This document shows positions 1-63,849 of a DNA stretch of 64,000 nt, piece after piece. Each line of letters starts with the position of its first letter. Within the stretch, counting starts at the first letter, position 1. Under the pieces are notes generated by a model. That model made no database searches, was not told where the DNA came from, and saw nothing but the letters and a program-made list of their open reading frames with translations. Source of the stretch: Branchiostoma floridae. Taxonomy: Eukaryota; Chordata; Leptocardii; Amphioxiformes; Branchiostomatidae. Position numbers and translations under genes: made by a program. The stretch spans positions 7,140,734 through 7,204,733 of the forward strand of contig NC_049989.1 in NCBI RefSeq assembly GCF_000003815.2, in the 5' to 3' direction.

Positions 1-168
1 TGACACTAGTTTTAAATTGTTAATTGTTAGAAGTGGATTCTATAGGCAAATTCATTGCCGCCTATCCAGTGACATGATATATGATATGATACAATGTGTC
101 AGTTTCAAAAGACAATTTTACCTTTAAAGACGGCTGGAATTATAAATCATAAAACGAGTAATACTTGC

Positions 169-35200: not shown

Positions 35201-38200
35201 ACGACGATATGAATTAGCATTGCGATTGGTTTTGACTTTTCTGTGTGTGCAGCATAACTCAAGAAGCTGTGGGTGGATCTGTGTGATATTTGTTATGTAG
35301 ATAGACGGTGGCAAATGAAGGACCATTTTGATTGAGGGCCCCTGACGCCTTCTCAAAGTACTGCAGCATAGCATTTAGTTTGTGTATCAACAATATAAGA
35401 TTATATAACACAAGCTACCGACGATGTGTGACGCGAGTCGCATAACTTACGCCTTGAGCTCTTGTCCGCTGAAAACAGAAAAGGTAAATCACCCAAAGTC
35501 CTTTTTTTAGAAATAGCATGTCTGCACAGTTTGTACCGAACTTAGAGGAAATATGTTCCTGCTTACCCTTTCAATTGACACTTACTAATATGTGATGAGG
35601 CACATATGAGAGGGTTATGCGTTGTAATTATATACAGAACACAGGCGGACTGTTGAAAGACACATAACTCTTTTAACAGGCCATGTTTCAGCAGCCAAAT
35701 GTTTGATCTCAGAGTTTACATAACCCAAGTTTAAAAGCCTGGCTAGTCCCCAAACTTAGCAGATGTAAGTTGTGAGGAGACCGCATGAAGTGTTATTTCT
35801 GTGTAAGTTATCCTTTGTTAACATTGACCGTAGACTGTCTGGCAATTTGAAGTAGAAAACATCCGGCTGACGAGTCCAACCCTGTTTAATGTTTAAGTAA
35901 CAGCCCGATTAATCTAAGTGGGTTTTAAATCTACTTTCACTTGTTTGCTTTTCTACTGTGTGAGGCTCGGTTTTTAATGGTTCAGTGTGATTAACTATAA
36001 TGGATTTGTTGATTTATGAACGTTGATTCAAATGTGGCTATTTTTTATTTTACAAAGACGTAGTAGATTCATAACATGATAGCGGTTGTATGATATATAT
36101 AATGAAGAAAATACATGTACTGACTATAATGTGTAACAGTACCAGTTATGCATTGTGACAAATTCTTTTTAGGTGCTTCTTCTTCCTTAGGGTGCCCAAC
36201 CTGAAACTAACAGCCTATTTAGCAGCCCATTCTGCAGCCGATTCAAGCAGCACGGGAGTTTAGCTCCTGGTATCACGATAGACTCTGAATAACCGCAAAA
36301 GGCCATAGTTTTCAAAAGCTCTTGCTTTTATCGTGATAACGTTGAATTTTTCCTTATTTTTCGTTCTCAGTAACTGGTGCGCCTACACAGTGTCCAAGCA
36401 GGTGTCCTGTAAGGTTAAGAATGGCTCGGCGGTCTACAAACAAGCCTACTACATGCCGGGGTGCTCCGTCTGGAAACCTGGCAACTGTTACAGGTAGGCA
36501 GGGGAGTATCTCATGTGGGGCATGTGGCATGGGCAAAGTCAAGACGTCACTGTGAGCCCTCTCACGGTTAGAGATCTGATCGCATGTGCAGCGACAGGTA
36601 TTCTAGGTGATATGTCAAAGGTAAATGCCCAGAAAAAGAATGCAGTTCTTGACTCGACCATATGTACCATTGTTTCAACGTCCAGACGTCGCCAAATGAT
36701 GATGATGATGATGATTATATAGAGGTGGTCACTAGCACAGATTTGACTATGTAATCGTGTTCACTATCTCTGCCAGGTACCGGCGGACAGTGCGTCCCAC
36801 CTACCGAGTGGCGTACAAGACCGTCACGGCCATGGAGTGGAGGTGCTGCCCCGGCTTCCAGGGAGCAACCTGTCAGGACAGTACGTAAACTAGAGTAGTC
36901 TCGTTGTAGTCTCCACCAGATTGATTACGTTTGCTTATAAGGACAATAATTTGACAGGTGAGTTTTGCTACCAAAGGAGTTGGCCGGCCGCTCAGCCAAC
37001 TTTCCGGAGGGGAAACATTTTAACCTTAGCATGGACTGACTATCCTGATTCTTTTGCGGAATTCTACGATCACCGTACCCCAGTAAGAAATTCTGGTGGG
37101 GTTAGTCTCATTAGTTCATTGCCCGGCTTTAATATTTTCCCACTATGTGCCAGAGGTAACAACGATTAGTCAGAGTACAATGATATTGTACGCGACAAGG
37201 AAACTCCAAGATGAGATCTATCGGGTTGATGAAGAGACAAACTGCGTCTCGAAAGATTCCCAAGCCACGAACTGTAGTTGTGTGTATTTTGTTCAAAATT
37301 TTGTCATTTGAAGGCAATTCATTGTATTTCCACAGCTTGCTTCAACTGCACTCGTCTGACAGCTCTAGAGAAGCGGATGAGTGCTCTGGAGAACACAGTA
37401 AGTCTTAGCATTTCACTCACTTTCTCTTTGCGATAACTGTAGAATATGTTTTATTTTCATGTGTTTGAACTTTGATCATGACTTAATTCTCCAACCTCAG
37501 TTAGCTACCATTACAGGAAGCTAGTCTGCGATTTTGTGTGGTACAGAATAGACCAAACGCAACTATTGAAATTTTACAGTTTTGTGAATCTCCTAGTCCA
37601 TATATAATATTCTTATTGCAGGGTCTACCGGTTAGTAGTGACACGAAAGATTTGCCAGTCGGCCCACCCCCTGTCACAAATGGCAAGAAAGCCGACTCGG
37701 AGGTGTTATCGACAGGACCTACAGGGCCCGTGGGTCCCCGCGGCCCTCCGGGTCACCCCGGGATCCCCGGGCGAGCGGGTCCCGAGGGCCCACGGGGAAG
37801 GCCCGGGGCACAAGGACCTACCGGGCCGCAAGGGCCTCCGGGACAACCTGGCTTACGGGGAGAAATAGGCTTACCTGGGGAACAGGGTGAGATAGCGAAT
37901 TATATTAATTTGGTGAGTTGTTGTTGTAGGTACGTAGCAAAAGTTATGAAATAGATGACGAGGATTAGACAAGTTATGTAGGGGTCAACTGCGTCGACTC
38001 CCTTGTAATTTTCTTAAATAAACTTGCATATAACTGTTACATACAATTTACGTTCTGGATCTTTTTTGTAGGTGAACCAGGCATGCCTGGGGCGCCAGGG
38101 TTCAGCATGGAGGGTTTGCCAGAAGGTATGCCTGACATGTCGGCACTACTCCGCAAGGTGGATCTCCTAGCGAACAGAGTATCCCTATTGGAGGAACTGA

Positions 38201-39683: not shown

Positions 39684-41686
39684 CTACGTTCCGGGTACCC
39701 TCCTCCTAGAGACGACATACTCGATGTAGCTGATCATCCCGTCGTTGTTTGTATCATCTTCAGACAGGATCTTGTCCACAAGACCTAATGATAAAATTCC
39801 AATAGTGTAAGCGACACTTGTCATCACTTATTAATGGTCCCATTCCTGTGAATCCTGTATATTTCTGTTTTACTTCTAGTGCCTTTTAACTTTCGTTAGA
39901 AATCGGGCAATGCTGATTTGAACTGCTAGGTGTCGTGGCAGTTTGAAGGATATGGTCACAGACATGAATAAGGTTGTATTCCCGCTCATCACAATTCATG
40001 ACAGGGGTAGATTTTCTATCGATCCAATCAGTTCAGTTCAGTTCACCTTGATCTAGCCAGTACATTGCCCTGAGGATGCTAGAACAAGGACTATAGAAAA
40101 GTTGGCAGGTAGGTGATATTGGTTGTGTACAAATAACCCTTTTAATGCTCAAGTACTCAACAACATGATGAAAGTATTCACAGAGATGTACCTGTAAATA
40201 CGGTCATCCTCTCCTGGTGCTCCTGGTTGGTCCGTTCCCGTTCCTGCTCGGCAGTCTCTCCCTCAGGAGCCGGGCGCCCGAAACTGTCGTAGTCGGAATT
40301 ATGGGATACCGCCGCCATGATCTCTAACCCGTCCAGATGGTGGTCTTTGTCGCTATCGTGAGATCTGACGTATATATATGATAAAAGGGCAATAAAACTG
40401 AAATAGGGTTTCGGGGGTGTTGTCAAAAAGAACAATCACAAGCCTTACACAGGTGTGCTCGGATTACCTGGCTATCGAGAGACCTGATTTGACCTTAAGG
40501 GCAAAGGAATAATTGCAAACTTACAAACGCTGCAGAAATATCAATACCACGTGTATCGATATATTATTGACTATTAACTAGCTTTCACATTTGCACGAAT
40601 ATGTTAATATTAGGCAACTGTATGTAATTGGATACTTCCTAGCTGTTTTTGGCCAAGACAAGAGCATGCAAAAACATTCACAGACATTCTGTTCATTCTT
40701 ACATGCGGTGTCGTACCTTACTGTAGAGTAGCTCTTATCACAAGATATGTTTTGTTATATTTTGAGTGTACTTCACTACGTATGAATGTGAGTCGTACAA
40801 AAATAATGAAGTTAAGTCATACTTGAAGAAATGGAACTCTCTCTCCGCTGGGGTCATGCTGTTGATATCCTCCTCAGACAGCTCCTTGACGTGTTCTTTT
40901 AAATGTCTGGGAAATATATATGAATGTAACGTCATAGATATATACTTGAAGTTGACCGTATGTATGTACATAGGGGAGATAGGAACAAATTGTCTGATTG
41001 CAGTATCTTTAGTAACCGCTAGAGTGCGTGGTTCCATTCTTTTAATCAGCAATGAAGTGTGTTTGGGTCATACGACTCATACCTTTGTGTTTAGTGACCC
41101 ACGATATGCTATCTAAATTGATATAGGATCTAATTACCGAGGGTTCTCCGTTGCTTACGTTATCATATCTCTATGATGACCATGTGGTCATTTTCCCACA
41201 CATGGAAAAGTACTTCATGTTTTGTTTACCCTGCAGTCGGCCCAGTTTATGTACAGTAGGAAAACAAAACACAGCGAATCAGCTGCTACCACGTAGAGCT
41301 TTGAACCATCAGTTAGCATTACTCACAACTGTTAGTTAATAGTATCCCTGAGTACTTATACCCTGAATTTTTTTATGTCCATGACTAGCAACAAACATTG
41401 TTCTTCGTTAAATTTTGATGCGCACTGAGAAGGCACATATATACGTACTGAACAAGCAGTTCAACACTTGCACGATGAAAGATGTGTGACATTTCCCATA
41501 TGTTAGATAAACGTCGTTTCTATATCATACACCTTACCCCTTGTCCTGCAGCATTTGAGCGTCGCGAAATTTGTTGTCGCCGTACCCCTCGGGAGACAAG
41601 CAACGCGTCTGAGGGACCAGGAGCAGGACCATGGCCCCGACCACAGCCGGGAGAACAGCCGACGACATTGCCACACTACCCGCCAT
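39684..41686 (-). CDS. MCFD2-like: MCFD2-like EF-hand protein, paralogue A (4 exons)
   Basis: Exons in coding order: 41538-41686, 40823-40906, 40192-40364, 39684-39784; 168 residues. In vertebrates MCFD2 is a soluble EF-hand partner of the LMAN1 cargo receptor that helps move glycoproteins from ER to Golgi. Residues 1-29 are a signal peptide (VVGAMVLLLVP). HLKEHVKELSEEDINSMTP is the family's helix before the first EF-hand. EF-hand 1 is DSDKDHHLDGLE. EF-hand 2 is DTNNDGMISYIE. Both loops have canonical calcium ligands at positions 1, 3, 5 and 12. Between them lies a long acidic linker (PAPEGETAEQERER). The C-terminus is short (SRRRVPGT), unlike the charged tails of B-D. No KDEL-type retrieval signal is seen. 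Confidence 0.82.
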
Positions 41687-42261: not shown

Positions 42262-44912
42262 CTATTGGTTTAGCTGGTCATTCAGATCCTTTTGCCGCTG
42301 CTGTTGTGAGGCTTTTGCATCTTTTTCATGTCTGCGTCTTGAGATGACGTACTCGACGTAGCTCATCATGCCGTCATCGTCGGTGTCATCCTGCTCCAGG
42401 ATCCTGTCCACCATGCCTTAAGACGAAGATAAAAACATTGTAAAATACTGTTTATCTTATTATTTGTGATTTACACGTAGCACCTTTGTGATATCATAAG
42501 CTTTTTGGATGTTATTTTTCATTAAGTTTTCTTTTTTCATAACTATGCTCAAATATATATTGAATACACGATGAAAAATCTTGTTACCCATGCATGGTAC
42601 AGTGCGATAGGTCGTGACGTCACATGACAGGCCGTAAATGCTAAAAATGCATTGTATCTTCCTTGCTTCCTTTTGTCAAAGGTGTCAATCATTTAGATAT
42701 TTTCCTTATACGTAACTAGACAGCGACATAGGAGCAGAAATGCACATTAGGGGAAATCCTTATATTATGGATCTGAAAATCTACTCTGCATATTATGGGG
42801 GGATACCCGCTTAGTCACGTTTGGGACCGAATCCTCCCTACTGCAGCGCCACCTAGCTTTTTTTCCAGTCATGACATAAGGCAGACCTGTTAGAAAGTTG
42901 AGTCTCTCCTGATGTTCTCGGTACCTCCTGGCTCGTGTCTGTTCGGGAGTCTCATGTTCGGGCACGGGTTGCTCGGCCGGCTGTCTGTGGGAGTGCTGGT
43001 GATCAATGGCCGCCAGGATCTCTAAACCGTCCAGCTTCAAGTTGTGATCAGTGTCGTGAGATCTTCACGAGAAGGAAGGGTTGAAAAGTCAGCGGATGAT
43101 GAAAGGAAGGAAAATTTGGGAATAGAGAAACAACAAACGAAGGCAAAAGAAGGACTGGCCTTGAACGTATCGCTACAAGCTACAAAAAGTAATGCCATTG
43201 GTTTTATAACAGGCTCATTTTTCATCGAATGAATTGAAATTTGGCACAGAGGTAAAGGCATATATCCTCCTGAGATTGAAATATCTCAATTTATTGTTCA
43301 AATTTTTATGAGTGACTGAGTTGAGTTCAAAATGACCACGCCCTTGGTAGCCCGTCGGAAGAAATGAGAGGCTCAATTAACGTGTAATTGATAATGTCCC
43401 TGACTCCCTTGTAGCTATTGTAAGAAACTGAACCTGCTCATGTATCAAACTGCATTTCTCGTTAAACCACATGACTATTTTTATTCGTGAAATACAAGCA
43501 GTTTTTCAGTTTTCGTTTCTGGGGTGAAGTGAGGTATAAGAGCTGATTTTAGGGTCGGGGATCAGGGGTGGGCTGATAAAGGTTTCCGTAGCCAACTTTC
43601 TTGCTAACTGAGAGAGATCAAACTTAGCACACTTTTTGATCTTTAAACAGTTAAAAATTTATGGAAAAACAGTCTACAGAAACCTTTAATCAACAAATCA
43701 CGTATTTGGCTATTATTCAAACTGCCTGTAATATAGCAACTCATTCCATTCTAGTAGCTGTGAAAGAGGAACCATTGGGAGTTTAGAAATGAAAATTAGC
43801 ATGTAACCTAAAGAGACAATCACTATTATACAAATGAAATATCAGCTCCCTACGCTGTTTACAAATGGGTCAGATCTAGAGAAACTGATCTTCTTACAAG
43901 CTTCCAAGAGTGTGGTCACTGGAAATCTACTCAGTTGTTAATTAATATTTTGAAAACAAATTGAGATATTTCAATATCAAGGGGAAATATACCTTTACCT
44001 TTATGCCAAATTTCAACTCGTTCGATGGAAAAATTAGCCTGTTATAAAACCAATGGCATTACTTTCTGAAGCACCCTCGTACTAACGTACTTGAAGAAAT
44101 GGAACTCCAGTTCCTCAGGTGACATCTGGTTGATCTGTTCCTGGGTCAGCTCCTGTACGTGTTCCTTCAGGTGACTGCATGAAAATAGAATTGCAAAAAA
44201 AGACCTGGTAACTCAACTGGTATGGAACATATGAAATAACTTTGTGTTACGTGTTTTGTTTGCATTTGATATCCAAACGCACAAGAGGGTGGTTGAGAGG
44301 CCCAGCTGCTCCAAGTCACACGCTGTTAGTAACAACCTATATGAGGCTCGAAACACCTTTGTTGAGAGGTACATTTTCAGAATAGTCAAGCCTAGCGCCT
44401 GTGAAACATGTCCTATAATCGCTGCCAGTTGTAACAAATGTTGGTCACCAACGTAATAATATGAAAGTGTCATTGTTTGAGGTCAAGCAAATGTTGGTTT
44501 GCTTATCTCCAATCAATATGTTTTAAAAGAACAAAGGTCAGGATAAAAGTACAAATGTTTCCGTTATGTGGCCTTGTATGTTAACGCTACGGACACCATA
44601 TGTAAAATTGAATCTTCTTGGGAAGATGGTGGAAACTATTAGTGTATTCCTGTAGGGTAATTAGATCAATCAAAGCGTGACTAAGTTAGTGACTTTAAAC
44701 CCAGAATAAGTCTTGTTGTGAATAAAAAGAATATCCATATGCTACCAGATTATGCCATATGGCTTGTATAAACACTGTTCGGCAAGAGAACTTTACCTTT
44801 TGTCCTGCACCATGGACGGATCCCGAAACCTGTTCTCATTATCAGTGCCGAACACGTTATGCACCAGAAGTAGAGTCACACAGACTGCAAGACAAGACCA
44901 CAACCTCGCCAT
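42262..44912 (-). CDS. MCFD2-like: MCFD2-like EF-hand protein, paralogue B (4 exons)
   Basis: Exons: 44797-44912, 44091-44174, 42887-43062, 42262-42416; 176 residues. Signal peptide SCLAVCVTLLLVHNVFG, then FRDPSMVQDK, an 84-bp exon encoding HLKEHVQELTQEQINQMSP, EF-hand 1 DTDHNLKLDGLE, a long acidic/basic linker (EHETPEQTRARRYREHQER) and EF-hand 2 DTDDDGMMSYVE. The tail is a charged, Gln-rich helix (HEKDAKASQQQRQKDLN). Exon phases are 2, 2, 1 as in the other three copies. The long exon 3 groups B with A rather than with C and D. Intron 2 carries an 876-bp fold-back element. The donor of exon 3 (GTCTGC) is weak. Confidence 0.82.
43188..44063. mobile_element. Fold-back element in intron 2 of paralogue B
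   Basis: AGTAATGCCATTGGTTTTAT and the following 100 bp (43188-43310) reappear as the reverse complement at about 43940-44063, ending ATAAAACCAATGGCATTACT. Similarity continues inward at lower identity (GACCACGCCCTTGG against GACCACACTCTTGG). No transposase ORF lies inside, so this is a non-autonomous inverted-repeat element. Target-site duplication was not identified. Confidence 0.75.
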
Positions 44913-45494: not shown

Positions 45495-47356
45495 TTATGA
45501 TGTTCCCGAGTTTTCTTGATTCCTCTTCACATTCTGCTCCCTGTGCTTGCGCGTTGAGATGACGTACTCGATGTAGCTCATCATCCCGTCGTTATCTGTA
45601 TCATCTTCTTCTAGAATCTGGTCCACCAAACCTATCAGTATAAAGGAAAATGTTGATGCAAGAGCGTACTATAGATATGCTTTTAGATGTACATTGAGAA
45701 TGTACGTCTTGTTGCACTTAGCCTTTTACTACATTGACTTTTGACATGATCAACTATTCTTCGTAATGCCAAGCGGCATGTTCTCTTCTCTAGGCTCAAA
45801 CACAATGACCACCTAATGCATGGATTTTTGACATTGACCTTCTATTACAAATGTCTACTCTGGTTTCTTCCTTGACGTTTGTTATGGAAGAAGACATTCG
45901 TGTCCAAAAGTATCCAAAATACTACTACTAAGACATTAGCTGAAACATAACATATGTTACCTGTGTGGTACTCCAGCCGTTCATCGTCATCAGGAGGATA
46001 GTTATATTCAGACCTATGTTCGATGGCGGCCATGATCTCCAGACCGTCCAACTTCATGTTCTTGTCGCTGTCGTGGGACCTGGTGAGAGGACGATTCAGA
46101 GTAGGTAAAAACTTAAATACACTTGTAAGCTGTATGATTAAGTGTTAACTACTATGTATTTACTTCTGTAGGGATGATGGTTTCGTGTCCCAAAATTTTA
46201 AAGCTTAAAAAAATATTTATGGCTGCATATGTATTTGTCTTATCTTTTCTATGGCGTCTTTACAGGAAACGTAATTTACGTTTATCCAAGGAGGTTAAAA
46301 AAACCTCCTTGGTTTATCTCACCATCTCCAGCATATTTTTAATGAATGGTAAATGACTGAATGAACGAATTTGCTCAAGCCGCTGACTTACTTGAAGAAG
46401 TGCCACTCCAGTTCCTCAGGTGACATCTGGCTGATCTGTTCCTCTGTCAACTCTTGTACGTGCTCCTTCAGGTGACTGCAACAAAACATCAAGACAAATT
46501 GAGACGTCGGCCATTACCCATATGACCATATATACAATGTAGCCTTCGCGTTCTTCCGCTGTCCAAACAGAGTTTGAAGAGATAACAGAGTAACTGGCCC
46601 AGCCGCTGTTGTTCACACGCTACAACGGCCTCTTACACTAAACACCCATATATGCAAGTGGCGGAAAAAAAGCACTAATTAAGATATGTCAACCATAATT
46701 TGGGGTCATTTGTGCCACGCATGATTGTCGGTTATGAGGGCAGCAACTGGTATTGGTCCATATGTTGTAATCAGTCCCAATGGCGCAACAACATGTCATG
46801 CCAAAATATGTAGTCTGACGTAGGCTTACTTATTCTTTACAACATCTTATTTTAACCTTGCGATTACGGCATCCTAATAAGACAAATACATGTAAAATAG
46901 AATTGAATATAAAGGAATGTACGAGAATACATAACGTAATATCGTTTCCCCTAGTATGGAATAATGAACTGAGAGAGCAAAGAAGGGGCTCTCATGCATG
47001 CAATGAAAATTCAGAAATTGTGTTGAGCCAAGTAAGTCTGATCCAGCGTTCCTCACTCCTCTGTCTGAAATTCTAACCACCTGATGTTCCGAGAAAAAAA
47101 GCGTTTCTGTCCTTAGTCAGACCACGACTATGAAACCGCCAATTATAATCCTCTATTATGTCCCAGTACTGTCTGTCTATTCCATATGTTATACAGGTTA
47201 ACACATATCTACCTACCCTTTATCCTGGACCATGGATGGATCCCGGAACCTGTTGGTGTCCCCCTCCGCTGTAGACACCGCTGTCGGTACCAGGAGGAGG
47301 TAAGTACCGAAGGCGGCTAACAGAGCGAACTGTAACCGGGGCTGAGGCATGGCCAT
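45495..47356 (-). CDS. MCFD2-like: MCFD2-like EF-hand protein, paralogue C (4 exons)
   Basis: Exons: 47217-47356, 46392-46475, 45961-46079, 45495-45631; 159 residues from the ATG at 47356, or 157 from the in-frame ATG at 47350. Signal peptide LLAAFGTYLLLVPTAVS, then FRDPSMVQDK, HLKEHVQELTEEQISQMSP, EF-hand 1 DSDKNMKLDGLE, short linker SEYNYPPDDDERLEYHTG, EF-hand 2 DTDNDGMMSYIE and a basic polar tail (STRKHREQNVKRNQENSG). The short 119-bp exon 3 and the YNYPP motif tie it closely to paralogue D. All calcium ligands are present. Expected in the ER lumen or secreted; a cargo-adaptor role is inferred from the family only. Confidence 0.83.
46286..46312. repeat. Short hairpin, CAAGGAGGTT half-site with 5-bp loop
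   Basis: CCAAGGAGGTT, five A residues, then AACCTCCTTGG. The arms match the palindrome at 34569-34590. It lies in intron 2 of paralogue C. Confidence 0.85.
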
Positions 47357-49739: not shown

Positions 49740-50940
49740 GATAGCAGCTTAATTTGTTCCGCTAGTACCTTACTATTACTAGCCGCATGTAAGCATTTAT
49801 TAATCTTTAACCGGGCGCTGTGCGTCCGCACCCACGTGGTTTCAACACTCGATGATACTTTAAATTTGCTTACACAAGTAGATAAACAATCGACAGCATA
49901 TAGTTATTGTAAGGTGTCCGATTCTGGGTGTCGTGGGAATATTAATGAAAACCATTAGGACAGCTCAGACAGAAAACCATTAGGACAGATGTAAAGGGTA
50001 CTTATGATGAACAGTTCTAATGAATTGTCGCACTTTCAGGCCTGGCAAGTTAGCCTTACCATAGTAACTACTAAAACCGTGGGCCACTAGAAAGAGGTAT
50101 AAAATGCCGTAACAACACGTGTAAAACACTCAGTCGAACAGCAGTATATAGTTTATATGTACATCTGCTTGGAGATTGTCGAAACGCTCATAACAAAACA
50201 CTCCCAGTAGTTGTAGTAATTAGCAGGTTTAGTAAGGTGTGATTTTAGTTTATGAAAATAGTTAGAGTCAGACCATGGCAGAGAAACAAATGCCAAATAA
50301 GAACATGTCAGCAACTGTGTCCAGAAGCACCATTTACAGTATTGTGACATTGCCCGACAGCCTTCGCAACTCTACATGGCGACCAGTATGCCACATTCTG
50401 TGTGGACTAATAAGAACAGGAAGGGCGTTGCCCATATGTACAATGACACTCCTTCTATGACACCACCATAATGGGACTGTTATGATATAGTAATGGTATG
50501 TGATATGGGCTATGGTTAGGGGGAGGGGGGAAACGATACTACCCAAACGTCTTGTCATTCAGAGTTCAGAGCTTTGGAAAAAATGACTCTGTGTTAGATA
50601 CATTCGCAGTTGACATTTGAACGAAGCGACGCCCGCCTCATATTACATTTTGTGAGGTTTATTATTGCAATTCCATAACATTAGTCTACATGGTCTGCGT
50701 CAGTGCGGTGAAAATGTGAGAGTTACACTATGTAAAATACGTTCTTTCGCTGTAGTTCATTTGACTCTTTTTTTACCTATAGAAAAACGCATAGAAAGTT
50801 CTGGTCGTCCTGGTAAAGATGTGTAATGGCTATATTGTGATGGTACGGCCCCCACACATGTTCTATAAGGAATGAGGGATTCACCAGTTTAGTAACACGC
50901 CTATACATAACGGGATGACTAGTGATGACCGCATCGCGCC
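49740..50940. other. Divergent intergenic region between paralogue D and the titin-like gene
   Basis: It contains the 5' regions of two divergently transcribed genes. Apart from the TATA element annotated separately, I see no clear motif, repeat or coding segment. Confidence 0.5.
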
Positions 50941-50942
50941 TC

Positions 50943-50967
50943 TATATATATCCCCGGGGAACAGCTG
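50943..50967 (+). promoter_or_regulatory. TATA box with adjacent E-box, promoter of the titin-like gene
   Basis: TATATATA (50943-50950) is followed by a GC-rich step and CAGCTG (50962-50967), an E-box of the type bound by myogenic bHLH factors. The presumed 5' UTR exon ends at AACGACAAG/GTAAGC (donor at 51077). The next exon (51987 onward) has the start codon at 52033. TATA plus E-box suits a tissue-restricted muscle gene. The functional reading is inference. Confidence 0.5.
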
Positions 50968-52032
50968 CACAGTACAGTCCCCAGGGTCGCGCCGTGCGGC
51001 CGCCAACTCAGATTTCTGCACAGTTTTCCCCGGAGAATTATCCTTTAAAACATCGCAAGATCTCCAGTAACGACAAGGTAAGCACCGTTCGTTCAGCCCG
51101 CTAAGTGGTGTTCAAGCGTTATTGTGTGTTTCGTTGTACATTTTCGTACTAAAGACAAGCAGCTGTAAGTTATGTGTACTGCGTTTGTGACGTTGTTATG
51201 ATAGACAGGGACAGATGTTGGCTGATGAGCTATCCACGAAATATAGCTTATTTCTTACCCCCCTCCCCAATGACTAGCCCTTTTTATAATTGCCAAATAA
51301 ATTGAATGTTACACAAGAACTCGTTTGAGTTTTCTTATGTTTTGTGTCACTTCGTAAGTGATATCACTTGATGATATTCCATTGCCGTTCTATTCCTTTC
51401 TGGTGATAACAATATTTGTGTCGTAACGATACCTATTGTTACATTTACTCTTTCATGGAATGGGTTTGGCTTTTCAAGTTTATAAAGATGATGAATTCTG
51501 AACATTGCCTCCTGGACATTTTAGATAGCTTTAACGTTTCATTCGACCCATGGCTATGGCCGATCGCATTCCATAATTTCAGTAGCATACGACATGTACA
51601 GTTCTTACACAACGGAAGAACATTTTGGTCTCTGACAACCTACTAATTACGATACCGTTATTGACGGGAAATTTTAGCTGATTCATAGCTGTTACTGTTA
51701 TGAAACAGTGAGCTTCTGAGCAGGCGCGATGCCCAAATATCAGTTCCAGGGGTTCAAGAATATCGAGATATATCTAGCCGAGAATTAGTTTTTAAACGGG
51801 TCGCGCTAGAAATTATCAATGTGGTTTTATAGCAATGATCGTACACAAGGATTTTCTATCTAAAGTTATACGACCTTAATTTATAGTCTTGCTCCAAGTT
51901 TAACCTCCTTGCTTGCTCTGAATGTATTTACTGCTTTACGTATACCACCCGCGATATTGCGTGATGATTAGTTACTTTTTTCACAGGTAAAATATCATCA
52001 GGCTTGTAACAAGCAAAGAACAAAACAAGATC

Positions 52033-55000
52033 ATGTCAGGTGGAATGAAAACCCTGCGCATCAAGTCCGGAAATGACATCAAACTTGATCTGCCAATCAG
52101 CGGGGACCCTCCACCGACGGTCACGTGGTATAAGGATAACAAAGAGTTGCGTAATTTGGGCCGATACAGCATCCGGAACACCCCCATTTCTACCATACTG
52201 AAGGTGCGCGGTGCAGACTGGACAGACGCGGGAGTATATACACTAAAGGTAATGGCACTTTGAATGACACAACTACACTGATACATACTTCTTGAATTGA
52301 ATCATAAGTGGATAACATCATCAGATGACTTTAGGAATGAGTCAATAATTTTTTTCCTCCGACTCACTAACCTATTGCATATTGACGACAAACAAAAACA
52401 TATCTGAGACAGACTTGAATAAGAAATTCTACTGAATGAAATAATTTGTGTGAAATGAATTTCAGCAATTGAACTTGGTGTGAATGGAGTTGGGTACCAG
52501 GAGAATGCACACGACAAAGTCCATGTGAATATTTGTTGCGCTTTACACTCTTAACAAAATTTGCCTCTTCCCTTTTTTCCAGATTTCTAATGAGTTGGGA
52601 ACCAACAAGGCCGATATAAAGATTGAGGTGATTGGCCCTCCCGACCCCCCTAAGGGCCCCCTGACAGTCAGTGACGTCACCGCTGAAACTGCTGTGCTGA
52701 CATGGGCACCACCACAGTACGACGGCGGAGCGGAGGTAACATGGTGCTTTTTTCGCGACACCTCAATGGTGGAGCCGATGATACAGTACTAGTGTTACCA
52801 TCGATATCAAGTTGAAAATGTTCTAAGAACTCCTACTATGTGTTCGTTTAAAATTAGTTTTGGGCCACGCCTCATGAGCTCAAGCGTCTGGTTCACGCAT
52901 TCCTTGTTCAGGGCTAGCACGACTCTACGTGACGTATCAATACATTTACGGTTGCTGATTTTCAGGTGATGAACTACGTTGTTGAGAAGACGGACAGTTT
53001 CGGGTTGACCTGGGTGTTCGTGAACACAAACGTACAGAGGAACACGATCCGTGTGACCGGACTGATCCCTGATGGGGAGTACAAGTTCAGGATCAGCGCA
53101 GAAAACAGGTGAGTCATAAAGGTCAATCTATTGGATCCTTTCGTTGAGCCCTTATGACAGGTCGTTCAGTGTAATATAACCATCTACTGCCGCACCGCGT
53201 GCCTGCGAAACTGGTGTGTTACGTTGAAGGGCGGTTATACGGCTATATAGATACAGATACAGGTTATTACCACGTCATAGAGCATGATCATCACTAGCTA
53301 GATGTCATGACGTGGTAGTTTCTACACCTGACGATGTGTTTTGTTCAAGGTTTGGCACGGGACGTCCCATCGAGACTGACGTCATCGTAGCCAAGAACCC
53401 GTACGACATCCCGCCCTCCCCCCGAGGCGTGCGGATAGTGGATGCAACCGGTGAAACCATCATATTGGCATGGCGACCGCCTGCAGACGACGGCGGGTCA
53501 GAGATCACAGGTCAGTATCAACCAATCAAGTACGGCTGAAACCTTTATCTGAAGTTTCTCTAATTTCTGTGAATGAATGTTCTCAATTCTCTAAAGATAA
53601 CTTTAGTCCATATTTATTATATTTTTCTACCCAGGTTACATTGTGGAACGACGTGAGAAGACCAGCCGCCGCTGGGTGAAAGTTAACAAAACTCCCGTCA
53701 GGAAACTGGAGATCCGTTCACAGGGGCTCGTGAAGGTATTCCTCGCGCTTTGATAAAGCACCACAAATAGTGCTTCATTTTCAAACGTCACGAGCAACCG
53801 CAATGTTGGTAGCGTTGTTAGATCCAAGATGGCGACCAATCATTCCGAATCCGAACTATCAACTATTTTTTTTCAAAATCATTCTGGTACATATTCTCTA
53901 AATATTCAGGGTCAAAATCAAGCATGTATTGGTTAAGAAAAATTACGTCGCATAATGGTTTTGCACGCTCCTTTAAACACACCATGGCGGAAGTTTGCAC
54001 AGTTGACATCGTTAAAACACCTATTTTGTTTTTGCAACCGGCATTGTTTTCGTATCATTTGTTGGTGAGTGTTTTCTACTAGTTACGATGAACATGCTGG
54101 TACCCATCTAAAACTACCACGCTTCCTGTACGTTCCCAGGGCCTGGAGTACGAGCACAGGGTGAGCGCAGTGAACGCGGCGGGAGTGGGGACCCCTAGCG
54201 AACCAACCGAGCTGGTGGAGATCATTGATCCCGTTGACGAACCGACTGAATTGAAGGTGAGAATTTGCATTCGCTTTGTTTTGTGGTGCTCCAAAATAAG
54301 ACGTTATTCTAAACACTGTTGTTTTTCGCTTTCATAGCTCAGATGTGGATGAACTTGTACCATCTCTCCCCCAGGTTACAGAGGTATCCAGGAATTCGGT
54401 GTCGTTGAAGTGGACAAGGCCCCTTAGCGACGGAGGAAGCCGCATCGTGACGTACATCATCGAGCGACGTCAAATGAAGGATGCTGAGGAGACTTGGCTG
54501 CTCTGTAACGACTCGAACGTGCAAGACACCAACTTCACTGTGGGGAACCTGTTAACGGATGAGGTCATCGTCTTCAGGTAAGGACCAGATTTCTTTTTTT
54601 CTGCAATCTTTTTTATCCACTTCTTAAAAATAAAAAGACATCAACAAAGGAACGGCATGACAGAATCGATGCAAAACTAAATAGGATGAGCTTTCTACCT
54701 TTAGGGCTATAGGTGCACATCTGGTGGCTGTGACGTAGCAATGACGTAATCAAATGTCAGCCATGTCGGTTGCTCTAGTAAAGACGCATGTAAACACATA
54801 AGTCATTTTGTGAGTACTTTTCAGTATCCAGTTCAATATGACAACACCACCATCTCGTCCCCCACCCTCCTTCAACATCATACTCCTTTATGTTGAAATT
54901 TATGAATATGTTTGTTATATGTACGCACCATTATCAAATCATATCACATCACCACTCCAGGGTGTCTGCCCGTAACGCCGCCGGGGTCGTCAGTAAGCCC

Positions 55001-58000
55001 AGCGAACCCACGCCGCCCGTGGTGCTGAGGGACGAGGAACGCCCGCCTGTGGTGCAGGTGATGCAATTTTGTATTGTCTTGATTTAGCAGAGATGATGGA
55101 AGACATTTGATGTATCGCAGCTGCTGTATCATTACAGTGTCAAAGGCAATGTCAATGAAACATAAATGATAAGTTTTGAAAACGTTGCGTTTCTAGTAAT
55201 AGTTATTGGATTTTAGATCCAATGACAAGGAAGGTAACCTTTAATAAGATAGCACTGCCTAACATAGAATCCAATATTTCTGCAGGTGGACGCCAAGACT
55301 AAGACATCTCAGCGGATACGGGCAGGAGAGTCCATACATCTCATCGTCAATGTCACCGGGAAACCACGCCCTGCTATCTTCTGGACCAAAGATGAAGTTG
55401 ATATCCTGAAAGTTTCCGGAGTCAGGGTAAGAAAACGTTAACCACTCGTCCCTTGTCTTGAAGACGGCAAGATATGGTAATAATGCTAGGAGAATCTCAA
55501 ACTTATAAGCAAAGATCATACCATGATAGATCAAAAAATGTCTTTGCATATCTTTATGTGGTTTCTTGACTTCAACCAATACAATTTTGCAAAATGAAGT
55601 AAGATCTTGCTTTTTTTTTATAAAATTTCATGAAGTTGGAATGATGTGATGTTACATGGCAATATGCATTCAGGAATTACAAATTAGATTGGCATTTTTT
55701 TTAATTTGAACTAATCCTGCACTTTCTTCCGGTTGTGTGGTACGAATATCAATATCAGATCAAAAACTTGAATTTTATTGTACTGTCATGCAGGCGACAA
55801 CTGTAGAAAAGAACCTAGGGCCTACTTGTGAGCTCTATATTGCGTCATCAGAACGTGCGCACAATGGGAAATACGTCATCACGGCTCAAAACGAGTTAGG
55901 GCAGGCGTCCGAGACACTGGAGCTTGTGGTCACCGACAGACCACAGCCACCCGAAGGTGAGTCACTCTTTTAATCCAACTCTTGGAGGAACAATCTGCCA
56001 CATGATTTTTTTTTATTTTTACCTAGTACCTGTCCCCACTGCTTAGCTCCAACTCAGTTCTACAAAAGCCTATCAGTGACGTAATTCCCTGTGAACCCTT
56101 TAGATGTTGAAGTGACTGAGATCACCCCAGAGACCGCCACAGTCACGTGGCGCCCACCTGAAGACGACGGCGGGTCAGAGGTCACAAGCTACGTTGTGGA
56201 AAAGTATGACTTCAAGGTCAGTGACATAGTCCTAGGACTTTGCATGTCTGATATCATTAAGACTTTTAGAAAAGGTAAAATCACACTAGGAGGTTTGTTA
56301 GAATGACTATATAGAACAATTACACTAGTAATGTTATTATACGTCTACCAGTATTATAGACACGGTCTAATCAAACATTGTCTGAACCTCAGGAGAAAGA
56401 GTGGACGGAGGTGAATCGTAATGTCCGTAAGACGCCCTGCACCGTGACAAGGCTCGTCGGCGGACGGGTTTACAAGTTCGGCGTGCGTGCGCAGAACATG
56501 TACGGCGTCAGCGACAGGAGAGCCACGTCACAGATGGAGGCCAAATACAACTTCGAGCCACCTGAAGCACCTGACATGCCCCGGCCAATGCAGGTAACAA
56601 CATTACACAACAACATTACAACATTATATCAGCCGTTTCAACAGCAGCGTTGTAGGCGACGAAATGGTTTGCGTAGGTGAAGAATGTTGTCATTATAGGC
56701 TTTCTAGCTAGTGATGATGAGCCCAATGCCTACTACATATTACATAGTGATATTGTCTTAACACTAAAACAAGTTTTGCCTGCTTGCGATTACAATATAG
56801 CGGATAATATCATAGAAACGTAGTTGATTTCGTAAAAGAAGGAACAATGATCACATGCTTGTTAAATGCATTGTACCTTATTATGATGCATGTAACCTTT
56901 GAAAATTATTTCTCATAGATTTCCAGGGAAGAGATAGTCCTTCGTTGGAACGCGCCCCCGGCGGATGGAGGCAGTCCAGTGCTCGGGTACATCCTGGAGA
57001 AGAAGACCGGCACGTCTGTGCGCTGGGACCGGGTCAACACGGACCCCATCGCCACAGAGATCTACACCGTACCCACCGTGGAGGGAGGGGAGTACGACTT
57101 CAGGGTCGCCGCAGTGAACGCAGCAGGGGTGGGCAAGTGAGTGGATACAGCCCGATATACGCTCAATTGCTAGCCTGGGTACAATCCGATTTCTACTGGG
57201 GCTCCTTGCGCTCGCTGCGCTGATCCGATTTCTACCGGGGCAGCGAGCGCAAGGAGCCCCGGTAGAAATCGGATGGCACGCAGGCTAGACCATGGTGCGC
57301 CAAGGGAAAAATCTCCAACATAACATACACTTTTACAAAAGTAAATGTTGCAATTACAGGTCGGTTGAAAAAATATAGCGGGCCATATTTTAAGTAAGGA
57401 TCGCACGGTAATCTTTATCTGTGTCAACCAAGATTAGATGTATAAAGTTATTTGCACACTAACAACTGAACTTAGCAATGATATGCTACGCACGCCTTGT
57501 TTCGACTACATGATTTTCATCTGTTCAAACATTTTTAATCCCTGTCCTATGCTTACTCCCTTTCCATGCTCAGGTTCAGTGTGTCGTCGGGACGGATTGT
57601 AGCGAGAAACATTGGGAAGCCGGGGCCGCCACCCAGTGTGACTGTAGTGGACACCACCAGGTCCTCTGCCACCGTGCGATGGACACAGCCGGAGGACAAA
57701 GGTACATCAAGTCATATATTCAATTATAGAAATTTTTGGATAAATCATATCTGTCTTCTAGATCGAGTTTATTCTTTGTTCTGAACTAGTCACTATGTTA
57801 GATAAGTTACACATGATTAACACAAATATCTGTCTTGCAAATGGTCTTCGTGCATGACGTAGCCATAACATTGATGATTAATATCATGTCGTGATTATCA
57901 TTTTGATATAAGCTTAAGGACACATTATGTATTTTTCATTGGGCAATGCCTTTTAGGAACGATTCCTCTTTTTCCCCATACTTCAAATACTAGTATATAT

Positions 58001-60679
58001 TCAATGTGTCTGCCCCTGGTGCTGAAATACCGCTTGTTATTGTACATTATAAAGTATGGGTAGATGCTTACCAATAATTGTTTCCAACCTCAGGAGGCGC
58101 TGCCATCCAGGGGTACGTTCTGGAAGTTAAAGATACGAAGACAGGGTGGCGCAAGTGCCACACATGTGACGTCATCAAGGGTTGCAACATGACCGTGACT
58201 GGACTAGATCCGGGTCAGGAGTACCTGTTCCGGGTCAGCGCCGTCAATGAACATGGACAGGGAGAGGAGACGGAAACCACTGAGTCTGTAGAAGCTAAGG
58301 ATAGGTACGTTATAACCTTACCTAGATACATATCATAGAAACTTAGCACTTTCTATCTGTGGAACCATGCTTTTTTTTCCAATGTATAATAAAGAAAATA
58401 TGTCTATGAGACAAATATTAAAAGCCAGAGAACATGTAGCCAAGTATAGATGTACAGGATAAATTATAATTGTAACATTGTGCAGACTTGAGCCACCGGA
58501 AGTGGAAGTAGACCCCTTGATGACGCGCGGCACCTCGGTGCATGCTGGCGAGACTCTGCACCTTAAGGCGGGAATCAGCGGCAGACCTGCTCCGGAGGTC
58601 ACGTGGTCCATCCCACAGGAGGTACAGATGATTTTATTACAAAACGTTCGTTCATCGTCAGAAGAATAGATATAGTCGTTGGTACAAACTTTCAGAAGCC
58701 TCTTTCTATTCCCATCCTCCTGCGCACGGTCCTCCAACGGCACTAGGTAACTGCCAATAGGCACTTATATTTAATTAACTTGTGCCGTTGGGGGACCGAG
58801 CGTTGGAGGATGTCTATTCCTGACGTCAGGTGTTCATAAGATCACGTGTTTCAAATGGTATCCGAGCATGAAGAGAGCAATAATGACGGCTAATACGAGA
58901 AGTTTATGCGTAAGATCACTGAACTGAACACAGTTTAGAATAGAATAACCATTTGTCCGTCTTTTAGGAGCGCGAGGGTCGCATCGCTGTGGACACTACG
59001 ACAAAGGACACGCAGCTGTTGGTGATGAACTGTGACAGGACTGACGCTGGCAGGTCTGTGTTCTACTACATGTTCATATTAGGTGGTAAACTCAGTGGGC
59101 ATTAACATAGTTCCGATCAAAAATTCTTCTAACACTACAAATTCAACTATCAGATGGGGTATTCCTTTTTACCCATATGCATTTCATTGATGAACTTTAA
59201 CGGTTAGCCTTGACTGAAGATCATCATAACAAACGACAACACTAATTATTTAAGGTTTTGCAAAATGATCCGTGTGTTTGTGATGTAAGGCTGACGGCAC
59301 GAGCTGATATGGAAATTTATTTCTTGTTCCAGATACGTACTTACCCTTAAGAACAGCGTTGGTGCCAAGACAATGACGTTCAGTGTCAAGGTGCTGGACA
59401 GTCCGTCTACTCCCGTCAACCTTCGAGTCAAGGACGCCAACAAAAATCAGGCTGTTCTCAACTGGGATCCTCCAGAGAAGGTGCCGTCTTGTCTTTCCAC
59501 TAGCATAACAGACTTATATTAAAGTACGTTGGGTGGTTTGCCACTGTGAACGTCTGTTGACTTATACTTTTGATATAAGACTTATTACTTATTTCAGGTG
59601 TTCATTTATGTATATATATGTGTTCAAGGACGGAGGTAGCCTGGTCACACACTACATTGTTGAGAAGAGAGAACAGTCACGACGCACCTGGGGTCCCGTG
59701 GATAGGGAGGTGCAGAGGAACTCCTACCGGGTCAACATGGTCGAGGGCAACCACTACTACTTTCGAGTCACTGCCGTGAATGAATATGGAGAGGGCGTCC
59801 CGGCGGAAACCACGGCACCGACCCTGGCGGCCGACCCTGTTGAGGTGCCCGATCCACCAAGATTCCTGGAGGTACTTTGTCCATAACTTCTGATACTCGT
59901 TTTCACAAATGGTACCCCAGATTATAAACTGGAGTGTCCAATTACTTTCAGCTCGTTCTGAGTCCAATAGCTTTAGTTCTACTGCAGTTTCAAAAGGAAC
60001 CGCTAAGGTATCCAAAATGTGTCCCGTTTTCAAGCCGTCACATATGAAACATTATACATGTAGTGCCATTTTTATAACGTATCGAGTAAGCAGACTAAAA
60101 TGCCACAAAATAACTGGGAACAAAATGTGACTTCCTAAAGTGAGACAACAACCACGGTAGTTACAACACTATTTCTCACAAACAATGTTCATACATGGGA
60201 TGTTTCAGGTGACCCAGGTGACGGAAACAAGCATAGGTCTGTCATGGGAGAAACCTGACTGGGACGGAGGCGCCAGGGTGGAGACGTATGTCATTGGTAA
60301 GTGTGGAACAAAATTTCTTTCGTGATTTCAGAATTAGTAATGGTTAAAAATTTCTTCAGAAAAAACACTTTTAACAGTTAAAGCGTTTTGTGGTTAATTT
60401 CCGTTGTCCTGCCTCGTCAGAGTACTTAGTAGTAACACTGTTCATCTATCATCTATCGTTCTTGCAGAGGGACTATGGGAAGGCAGCAACTCCTGGACGT
60501 TTATGAAGAACACATGTCAGACTCACGTGACCCTGATGGGACTGGACGAGGGGATGACGTACAGCATCCGGGTCCGTGCGCAAAACGGGGCGGGAATCGG
60601 GCATCCGGCGGAGGTGGAGGAGGATATCGTCTGCAGACATCAGGGGAGCCTGCCCATGGTGGACCTGGGAATGCTATAG
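52033..60679 (+). CDS. Titin/twitchin-like Ig and fibronectin III protein, 21 coding exons
   Basis: Coding exons: 52033-52248, 52583-52735, 52966-53108, 53350-53510, 53635-53735, 54140-54256, 54375-54577, 54961-55057, 55286-55426, 55794-55956, 56104-56216, 56393-56593, 56919-57136, 57574-57701, 58094-58304, 58486-58621, 58968-59053, 59333-59480, 59629-59871, 60209-60296, 60468-60679. Total 1092 residues, in frame throughout. Domain order: Ig (1-90), Fn x3 (91-389), Ig (390-492), Fn x3 (493-788), Ig (789-887), Fn x2 (888-1075), short unique tail. Ig domains show the I-set TVTWYKD and DAGVYTL type motifs. Fn domains show W.PP..DGG, Y.VE and Y.FRV.A.N..G motifs typical of sarcomeric A-band titin, twitchin and MyBP-C. 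No kinase, PEVK or signal peptide is present, so it is expected to be cytoplasmic and sarcomeric. Two donors (after 59053 and 59480) are weak. Confidence 0.87.
57172..57286. repeat. Hairpin element in an intron of the titin-like gene
   Basis: AGCCTGGGTACAATCCGATT through GCGCTCGCTGC on the left pairs with GCAGCGAGCGC through AATCGGATGGCACGCAGGCT on the right. The centre carries a second partial copy of GATTTCTACCGGGG. About 47-bp arms. Probably a small MITE. Confidence 0.8.
58713..58812. repeat. Hairpin element in an intron of the titin-like gene
   Basis: CATCCTCCTGCGCACGGTCC with AACGGCAC on the left pairs with GTGCCGTTGGGGGACCG and AGCGTTGGAGGATG on the right, about 31-bp arms around an AT-rich centre. 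The family differs from the 57.2-kb hairpin. Confidence 0.75.
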
Positions 60680-61560
60680 AACAATACACTGGAGTAATCT
60701 GTACTATGGTGATAAGCTAGATGACAGTCCCAAGTGCGCATGTGTAGGCGTGATGCATAGCGGTTTAAGGTCAAAGTGTAAGGCCCCTGCCATGGTCAAT
60801 TTCTCTATCTATGCCAGGAGCCTTAAACTTTTATCTCAGACCACAGCTGTGAACATGCTCACTTTGTACTTGGAATGTGAACTGACATTGGAGCCAATAA
60901 AAGAGTCACTGCACGTGACAACAGCTGGGCGCCTCACCACATTTTGCTTGGATTATGTTGAGAGTCAAGTTGCCACTGTACTATTGAGCTCAATTTGCCT
61001 GTAAATATTGTAATGTGCAAATGTACAAAAATGTAAGACTACCTTATCTATACAATGTCAAAGAAACTGAAAGGAGTGGACCATTTGTAAGATCAGGACA
61101 AAAGATATTCTTACAGTGACGTGTCGCTTTTAAAAGTGCGCCCTGACAATGGCAGTCACATATATAGACACGTACTCATCTTTGTATACTGGATATGACT
61201 TTTAGCACGGCGGTTGTGTGGTCTATAGTAAATGAAACCAGGACATACTTGTGTGGAGACATAACAACCTTGCAAGGCAGCCATGTGCTTAATTTTATTT
61301 ATGACAAAATAGCCGAGGTGCTATTGCCGGACGTGACAAAACTGGTAAATTTGACCAGATTATATCGAGACTTTGTAATCTGACCCGACAGTGAATTCTT
61401 TGCATGCTTGTATGATTCATATTATAAAAATAGGAGTTGTGATTAGTATACATGGGTGTTGTTTTGATATTGATTACAAGTAGTTAGTAGTTACCAAGCC
61501 AATTGCGTGTTCACTTGCATGATTCATTTATTCTTCATACCGCAAATACAATAAATATAT
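60680..61560 (+). other. 3' UTR of the titin-like gene with candidate poly(A) signals
   Basis: After the TAG at 60677-60679, AATAAA occurs at 60896-60901 and again at 61550-61555. Either could end the transcript. No further exon with an Ig or Fn domain was found between here and 63499, so the stop appears to be the true end of the gene. Confidence 0.55.
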
Positions 61561-62213: not shown

Positions 62214-63498
62214 GATACATTATCGATAAGTATTGCCCACAAGGTTAGATGAAGTCGCCATAGTTTAAATTAATAAATTAATAAAGTGGATACCATTTTC
62301 GGAAAAGAAGGCAGCTCCAGACCTATAGAATCACGATCTTCACTCTTGCCGTGTCTCAAGTGATGTACCTTTCATTCTCACAAATGATTGGTCACGATTG
62401 TCCATACCATAAATACCATCATCTGTAGTTGATTGAAATTGGATGCCCCGATCCCCAGCCCATTCAAGCAGATGCGAAAGTAGGCAAATCACTTTAACGT
62501 TTTCTGACCGGGCGACGTTTCTGCATTTCTCCATTGTTAGAAAAGCCATCCGGTCTGAAAACTGTACAATTTTCTAACCACCCAAACATCTGCTTGGAGT
62601 TTAGCGTTGTCTGACCTAGGAAGTAAATGCCACAGGGGTCACGAGGGGTCATGAGGCTTCTATGACAACACGCACGCACCATCCATGATTTGATTGATTT
62701 ACTGGTCTTCTATGTACAAAATCTGCGGAAATAAGAGTCTATTTCTCACTTGCTATGATATCTAGCTTTGGTGATGACGTAAGGCTGACAGAATATGGTC
62801 TGCTCTGGTGAGAAAAGCTCAGTTTAAGCATGTTGTTGTCGGAAGATCCATGGTTACAACCGGTTTGACAGGTAAGCCCCCCTCCCCACACACTTTCAGT
62901 TTATATACTCTGTAAAAAATACTCGGCATTATAAGATGAAAGAAATTTACCCAAAAGACACATTATGTGTGCCTTTTTTATATAACGTAAGTTACATTTG
63001 ATTGTGTTAAATCCGGAAACAAACTACAATTTACACAAATGATATTACACAATACACAATACACCCTATTGATAGACTTCTATGACACATTGGTATAGTG
63101 ATACAGTGACTACACAACTGCTTTACAAAATCAGACATAACTGAGGGAAGACGTGGATGACACTAAGATCACTTTGGGGTAAATATATGTCATTGAGAAA
63201 TGTAAACAATGGAATGAGACACCATATTTAACCTAATCATGACAGGTTAGGGTAAATATATTTAGGTAATGAAAAGGCCATGATTATAAAAGTAAAATAT
63301 TACTGCAATAAATTCTATATTAAGTTACAATGCACAGATTTGAGATGAGAGCAGTACTAGTATATGATTTAATAACAAATCCATTGTTATGGAAAAGCTC
63401 AATAAATGAAGAAATTATGATAAACATTTGCTATTGCAGTAGTATATTCTTTTCATATTGTTTGATGATTTCTGTCCAGTGTGTGAATCAGAGTGAAG
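62214..63498. other. No gene recognised; upstream region of the DUF4062 gene
   Basis: AT-rich sequence. A 69-codon minus-strand ORF at 62340-62549 resembles nothing I know. A polypyrimidine tract with AG at 63479-63480 (TTTCTGTCCAG) may be the acceptor of the start-codon exon, implying a 5' UTR exon farther upstream. Confidence 0.45.
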
Positions 63499-63762
63499 AT
63501 GGGTTGTGGGGCGTCGACAAACTATCAGTACGAGGTGAACCTCACCTGGGAACAGGTGAGCCGCACCGTGGACACGCCCAGACCCAAGGACGACAAGCTG
63601 GTCCTCAGGCACTCCAACTGGAAAACTGTCCGCATCTTCGTCTCATCAACCTTCAAGGACTTTCACTCGGAGAGAGACGTTCTCGTGAAGGAGGTGTTTG
63701 CAGACTTGAGACATTGGTGTGAGAAGAGGAGGCTACATCTGGTGGAATGTGATCTAAGATGG
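63499..63762 (+). CDS. First coding exon of a DUF4062 STAND-type protein, truncated by the window end
   Basis: The 88 codons end at TGG/GTAAGA, a good phase-0 donor. The protein starts MGCGAS, a likely N-myristoylation and palmitoylation signal. It then carries VRIFVSSTFKDFHSERDVLV and LHLVECDLRW, hallmark stretches of the N-terminal DUF4062 domain found before NACHT or other STAND ATPase and TPR or WD40 modules (TEP1, NWD1 and TTC41-like proteins). The subfamily cannot be decided from this exon. If typical, the downstream exons encode a large signalling or scaffold NTPase. The ATG is chosen for its position just after a plausible acceptor and its intact MG start. Confidence 0.8.
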
Positions 63763-63849
63763 GTAAGAAAATTGAGAAAAATTGAAACAAGAGCAGAAAC
63801 AGACAGAAACAATATATACAAAAATATCCAGGATTCAAAGCCGCGCTGA

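Follow-up and report, generated by a model that had tools for sequence, protein, structure and literature searches.

The C-zone unit of titin, known from a tandem array within a giant chain, is believed to take part in setting the 43-nm order of thick filaments. Can such a unit also exist as a gene of its own? The question is raised by a locus of the lancelet Branchiostoma floridae on contig NC_049989.1 (here C11), where the window, that is, the whole stretch of 64,000 nucleotides analysed (contig positions 7,140,734 to 7,204,733, forward strand), holds a gene for a protein of 1092 amino acids made of Ig and Fn3 domains; positions given below without a contig name are those of the window. With a probability of roughly 0.78, we read it as an open, apparently single-copy gene descended from one 11-domain titin C-zone super-repeat, in permuted order and on a contig other than that of titin. 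On this reading the gene is proof that a C-zone unit can become free as a gene, and a lone in-register unit that has apparently long been preserved would allow the unit to be expressed and studied by itself. No description of a stand-alone one-unit titin gene appears among the literature matches listed, as far as their titles and the beginnings of their abstracts tell.

Domain order and register against the titin C-zone

A Pfam scan of the 1092 residues returned eight fn3 and three I-set stretches in the order Ig-FFF-Ig-FFF-Ig-FF (F for Fn3), and the 11-domain layout proposed in the initial annotation is thus borne out by the gene model and Pfam. The titin C-zone super-repeat reads Ig-FF-Ig-FFF-Ig-FFF; the gene is like it in its 11 domains, its Fn types, its cyclic order and its in-register similarity, and unlike it in being one separate unit that starts at position 4 instead of 1. 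The vertebrate unit comprises 11 domains, and its Fn types A, B and C are those defined in the available part of PMC10665226. Their cyclic order together with Ig, -AC-ABC-ABC, is found in the gene for the three Ig and for all eight Fn domains, each of which scores best with the type expected from the C-zone order, with a narrow call for Fn8 (C 151.0 vs B 144.2). A chance resemblance is therefore unlikely.

Lancelet titin, for which Ohtsuka et al. reportedly published a vertebrate-like A-band in 2011, served as reference. An fn3 search of the genome (513,431,437 bases) placed its A-band at C18:17.02-17.19 Mb, on the contig that also holds the largest cluster of I-set matches, and in the fetched titin stretch the A-band ends, by eye, in kinase-like sequence. 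No fewer than six regular C-zone units of 11 domains each lie there in ~43 kb (within C18:17145001-17195000), four of them read by type-specific profiles (Ig-ABC, Ig-ABC, Ig-AC) and two more by the order of Ig and Fn; a large part of units U1 and U2 falls in a single open frame of 2045 amino acids. The tree sample consisted of six lancelet titin units (part of the array), two units from vertebrate titin and a single MyBP-C. Columns in which gaps exceeded 40% were removed from the alignments, Fn8 was trimmed to 96-102 amino acids, position 4 of the vertebrate units lacked its first residues, and C5 of MyBP-C was used without residues 686-707. Trees were built under LG, and block-tree bootstraps with the default model of FastTree in fast mode.

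In a block tree of 27 sequences (three blocks from each of the six lancelet and two vertebrate units, plus the three blocks of the gene), Ig1 to Fn3 (block 1) grouped with titin positions 4-7 in 100 of 100 bootstraps, Ig2 to Fn6 (block 2) with positions 8-11 in 96 of 100, and Ig3 to Fn8 (block 3) with positions 1-3 in 100 of 100, the grouping being taken as the smallest group that contains the block. This single register, positions 4-11 and then 1-3, upholds the circular permutation of one C-zone unit that had been proposed. Moreover, in the best genome match of the protein, residues 190-1090 align in one piece, colinearly and in register, to C18:17182048-17184744 (678 bits, 39% identity), and other in-register matches join residues 7-190 to C18:17181331-17181882 and residues 690-1088 to C18:17186791-17187996. 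Inside the six modelled titin units, 13 of 16 genome matches are in register, and for seven of eight titin units the identity is higher in register than in the swapped register. Altogether, block register and colinear titin match support the birth of the gene from one super-repeat. A surface motif described for position 7 of vertebrate titin in the available part of PMC10665226 was not visible by eye in the gene or in the six lancelet position-7 domains.

A separate gene and its putative product

The gene model, read off the sequence, has 21 exons on the + strand, the first at 52033-52248 and the last at 60468-60679, with the start codon at 52033 and the stop codon at 60677-60679. All 20 introns are GT-AG, the 1092 codons are stop-free and the two alternative frames of the joined exons contain 55 and 57 stops; the GC content is 0.57 in exons vs 0.374 in introns. 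A spliced alignment to profiles, which contained the gene's own domains, also gave 20 introns, 17 of them at positions identical to the model and three placed differently, at the edges of Ig2 and of Fn6/Ig3. The final Fn domain looks complete. A loss of residues in Fn5 was considered and ruled out, its alignment having a single gap only.

The signals previously claimed for a gene of its own, namely a TATA promoter, start, stop and poly(A) signals, were all located (50943, 52033, 60677-60679 and 60896). A donor at 51078 lies downstream of the TATA box, an acceptor at 51985-51986 stands immediately before the first coding exon, and both gene ends look real, as predicted from such signals. In a scan of 49900-51990 for muscle promoter motifs, no MEF2, CArG or SRF consensus was found; the E-boxes of this interval are CACGTG at 50116 and CAGCTG at 50962 and 51160.

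With regard to the genomic setting, the Ig/Fn3 matches of the window at E<0.01 all lie within 51991-60676 on the + strand, and no further Ig/Fn3 exon was found at that threshold on either strand among 2919 open reading frames (ORFs) of at least 15 amino acids. The gene is a single unit on C11 and is not part of the tandem array inside the titin gene, which lies on C18; in the available part of PMC12198301, chromosome 18 of B. floridae is likewise given as the site of amphioxus titin, obscurin, MYLK and TRIO. With no joining exon found in the window and titin on another contig, the gene appears to stand alone, as the initial annotation had it. A genome search with its protein, in which 42 of 603 candidates were scored, gave 52 matches, all at the gene itself or at C18 17.06-17.20 Mb.

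In the course that we propose, one C-zone unit would have been excised with its ends shifted relative to the super-repeat, so that it runs from position 4 to 11 and then from 1 to 3, and would have come to lie on another contig, where it has a promoter, a start and a stop of its own. The gene would be expressed in muscle, and its 11-domain rod of ~43 nm, equal to one thick-filament repeat, would lie on myosin tails like the C-zone units of titin. Such a permuted cut would keep the super-repeat boundary (positions 11-1-2-3), which is the level of MyBP-C in vertebrates, intact in the interior of the protein. To judge from its sequence, the protein is most likely a thick-filament accessory rod, a separate A-band component that may bind myosin tails. 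It would be neither a spring nor a full-length ruler, because it has no I-band part, no kinase and no M-band part: whole titin has an I-band Ig tandem, PEVK, a kinase and M-band Ig domains, whereas the Pfam scan of this protein shows only three Ig and eight Fn3 domains.

Twitchin and projectin are long thick-filament Ig/Fn3 rods that bear a kinase and consist mostly of Ig-FF repeats; the gene was likened to them by layout and one PDB match, and no counterpart of their C-terminal kinase is present in its Pfam scan. The titin D-zone repeat (Ig-FF-Ig-FFF, 7 domains; available part of PMC10665226) has the same Fn types as the gene, which differs from it by a second Ig-ABC block and is set apart by the D-zone description.

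Weighing descent from the C-zone against MyBP-C kinship and other readings

A number of observations weigh against descent from one C-zone super-repeat, or against parts of that reading. Three of the 16 matches inside the titin units, all short, are off register (C18:17186044, 17186347 and 17173106), and the vertebrate unit T1 is the exception in the identity comparison, with 0.386 in register vs 0.388 swapped. Bootstrap support for the register was weak (0.664) as long as the comparison was confined to the two units of vertebrate titin, and the register became clear only after lancelet titin was included. Single domains are ambiguous at positions 5/9, 6/10 and 11/3, as are lancelet titin domains of known position when taken singly; since this ambiguity is frequent, support for the register counts at block level, and the expectation that all 11 domains would match C-zone positions in order held for blocks and often gave an ambiguous result for single domains. 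One of 22 modelled introns matches, in position and phase, an intron of any of the four intron-bearing titin units. No second copy was seen in the genome protein search, in which only 42 of 603 candidates were scored. The function outlined above is argued from homology. Finally, when MyBP-C was added to the block tree (29 sequences), block 2 went with C8-C9 in 73 of 100 bootstraps, vs 21 of 100 with titin positions 8-11.

This last result bears on the alternative that survives best, in which the gene is the lancelet counterpart of MyBP-C and the two share a single free-standing C-zone unit as their ancestor; on the side of MyBP-C, positions 5, 10 and 11 would have been lost, while its N-terminal domains and C10 would have been added. 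We regard it as unlikely. The gene aligns to C6-C9 in order with 229 bits. Among the compared domains (those of eight titin units and of the gene, and sequences translated from the surroundings of the six best genome matches for C9), C9 finds its best match in Fn4 (80.9 bits, next 63.5) and C5 in Ig1 (66.2 vs 62.0 for the next), whereas for C6, C7, C8 and C10 the domains of titin are a better match than those of the gene. Nor is the preference reciprocal, seven titin domains matching Fn4 slightly better (83-86 bits) than C9 does. Of the MyBP-C domains, C9 thus gives a clear signal and the others a weak one. On the other hand, the order Ig-(A)BC-Ig-A is compatible with that of MyBP-C, the types of C6 (B), C7 (C, narrowly) and C9 (A) would fit a MyBP-C built from positions 4, 6, 7, 8 and 9, and over five domains the gene has 24 residues in common with MyBP-C alone, vs 1 to 15 in the eight titin copies (15 in the isolated U2).

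The trees are divided in a similar way. Block 2 joined C8-C9 in 121 of 150 bootstraps of a separate run as well, and Ig1-Fn2-Fn3-Ig2-Fn4 joined C5-C9 in 131 of 200 when lancelet titin was part of the tree, whereas titin kept blocks 1 and 3 in 92 and 92 of 100 bootstraps; the placement with MyBP-C instead of titin that the initial annotation had named as contrary evidence is therefore seen for block 2 and not for the other two. A quartet had put the gene with MyBP-C in 300 of 300 replicates, and in 200 of 200 after a second register had been brought in, before falling to the 131 of 200 just given once lancelet titin entered; the two former values are not strong, because the splits are unrooted and the vertebrate titin units cluster. 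MyBP-C is moreover a long branch, represented in the sample by one protein in trees that are unrooted. In an exon-by-exon genome search with C9, titin exons came first (51.5 bits) and half of Fn4 reached 30.4; no separate lancelet MyBP-C stood out in this search, and the four of 80 matches outside the gene and C18 17.0-17.3 Mb were all weak (~37 bits or less).

The architectures also diverge, the core of MyBP-C being laid out as Ig-F-F-Ig-F-Ig. The gene has Fn1, Fn5, Fn6, Ig3, Fn7 and Fn8 in addition, and no C10. As to C0-C4, they are absent: the protein begins inside Ig1, an in-frame stop lies upstream and no upstream Ig exons were found. It is just as doubtful that the vertebrate MyBP-C family has its surviving sister in this gene, with a titin super-repeat freed in early chordates, kept whole in lancelets and trimmed to C5-C9 on the way to MyBP-C. 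If this were true, MyBP-C would be a freed piece of the ruler that it decorates. Through the gene, the question of how MyBP-C arose can be put to the test in chordates. MYBPC orthologs are reported in tunicates, in a tree rooted on lancelet titin, in the available part of PMC11203038.

Less probable still is a relic of the first C-zone assembly, older than the super-repeat array, which was the second of the two histories initially offered. The gene is about equally identical to lancelet units (0.37-0.41) and to vertebrate units (0.37-0.39), as an old relic would be, and these values are close to those between lancelet and vertebrate titin (0.37-0.41), from which it follows that either the split is old or the gene evolves fast. 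Of the six lancelet blocks, five group with block 1 at a support of 0.969, while the sixth, that of U2, joins at 0.573 only, and it is on this node that the placement of block 1 inside lancelet titin depends. Birth from one super-repeat is nevertheless favoured over the relic, because all three blocks carry positions that are already differentiated in titin.

Descent from a C-zone unit must also account for the introns, nearly all of which differ in position from those of the four titin units, these sharing 2-6 introns among themselves. The comparison was run with stricter acceptors, under which the gene is over-split (the 22 introns above). The common intron, shared with one titin unit, lies at position 9 after K-x-D-x-K in phase 0 and is exact in its sequence context. 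With one match in 22, the gene is not a recent plain copy of titin, and we read its history either as descent at the level of DNA, after which introns were gained and lost, or as release from an intron-poor exon like the 2045-residue frame of U1/U2.

A young or decaying, functionless titin duplicate is very unlikely. That no second copy or ortholog was seen among the candidates scored in the genome protein search, and that Ig1 seems by eye to have lost its first strand, would agree with it, but 1092 stop-free codons and a full set of canonical splice sites persist at only 37-41% identity to titin units, and since this is as low as between lancelet and vertebrate titin, the frame has seemingly been kept open over a long time. 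Hardly credible, lastly, is a detached or mis-assembled block of titin exons, despite titin-like sequence throughout and an Ig1 seemingly short of its first strand, in a window without N where no other Ig/Fn3 exon was found, where nearby ORFs carry non-titin domains and where the gene has its own TATA box, upstream in-frame stop and poly(A) signals, while titin on C18 has full units of its own; an assembly fragment of titin was ruled out on the absence of N, the other contig and these signals.

Gene features and neighbouring sequences

The features of the gene are collected in Table 1. Two of its introns contain inverted repeats, one at 57170-57288 with 49-nt arms that are 92% complementary around a 21-nt spacer, which could be a hairpin or resemble a miniature inverted-repeat transposable element, and the other at 58713-58812 with 38-nt arms, 84% complementary, and a 24-nt spacer.

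Table 1. Features of the Ig/Fn3 gene, in window positions.
Feature	Positions	Strand	Residues	Fn type	C-zone position	Remark
TATA box TATATATA	50943..50950	+				motif; probable core promoter
Probable 5' untranslated exon	50970..51077	+				inferred; estimated start; ends at donor AAG/GTAAGC
First coding exon	51987..52248	+				in-frame stop 51988-51990 ahead of ATG 52033
Ig1	52033..52636	+	1-90		4	first strand (A) missing by eye
Fn1	52637..53404	+	91-189	A	5	
Fn2	53405..54232	+	190-289	B	6	
Fn3	54233..55039	+	290-391	C	7	
Ig2	55040..55937	+	392-492		8	
Fn4	55938..56557	+	493-591	A	9	best match found for MyBP-C C9
Fn5	56558..57613	+	592-689	B	10	
Fn6	57614..58486	+	690-789	C	11	
Ig3	58487..59399	+	790-885		1	
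Fn7	59400..59844	+	886-984	A	2	
Fn8	59845..60679	+	985-1092	C (narrow margin)	3	with short C-terminal tail and stop
AATAAA poly(A) signal	60896..60901	+				closest to stop codon

Downstream of the gene, an ORF at 63487-63849 (+) matches DUF4062 (E 1.6e-5), with a weak, below-cut-off match to nephrocystin-3, and is perhaps the start of the next gene. Upstream, an ORF at 37505-37954 (+) matches Pfam PF01391, the collagen triple-helix repeat, with an E of 3.9e-11. Three ORFs on the - strand (40178-40435, 42765-43064 and 45845-46144) have in common a stretch like RSHDSDKxxxLDGLEIMAA; Pfam gave no match for them at a cut-off of 0.01, and they are perhaps EF-hand genes resembling MCFD2. Elsewhere in the genome, the scan showed two long clusters of Fn3 matches away from titin, at C8:14.250-14.285 Mb and C19:6.734-6.794 Mb. 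At 10109-10862 (+) of the window, overlapping open frames contain the repeated peptide ..LSNFSSFGCNTRVQGPK.., by eye apparently a tandem DNA repeat.

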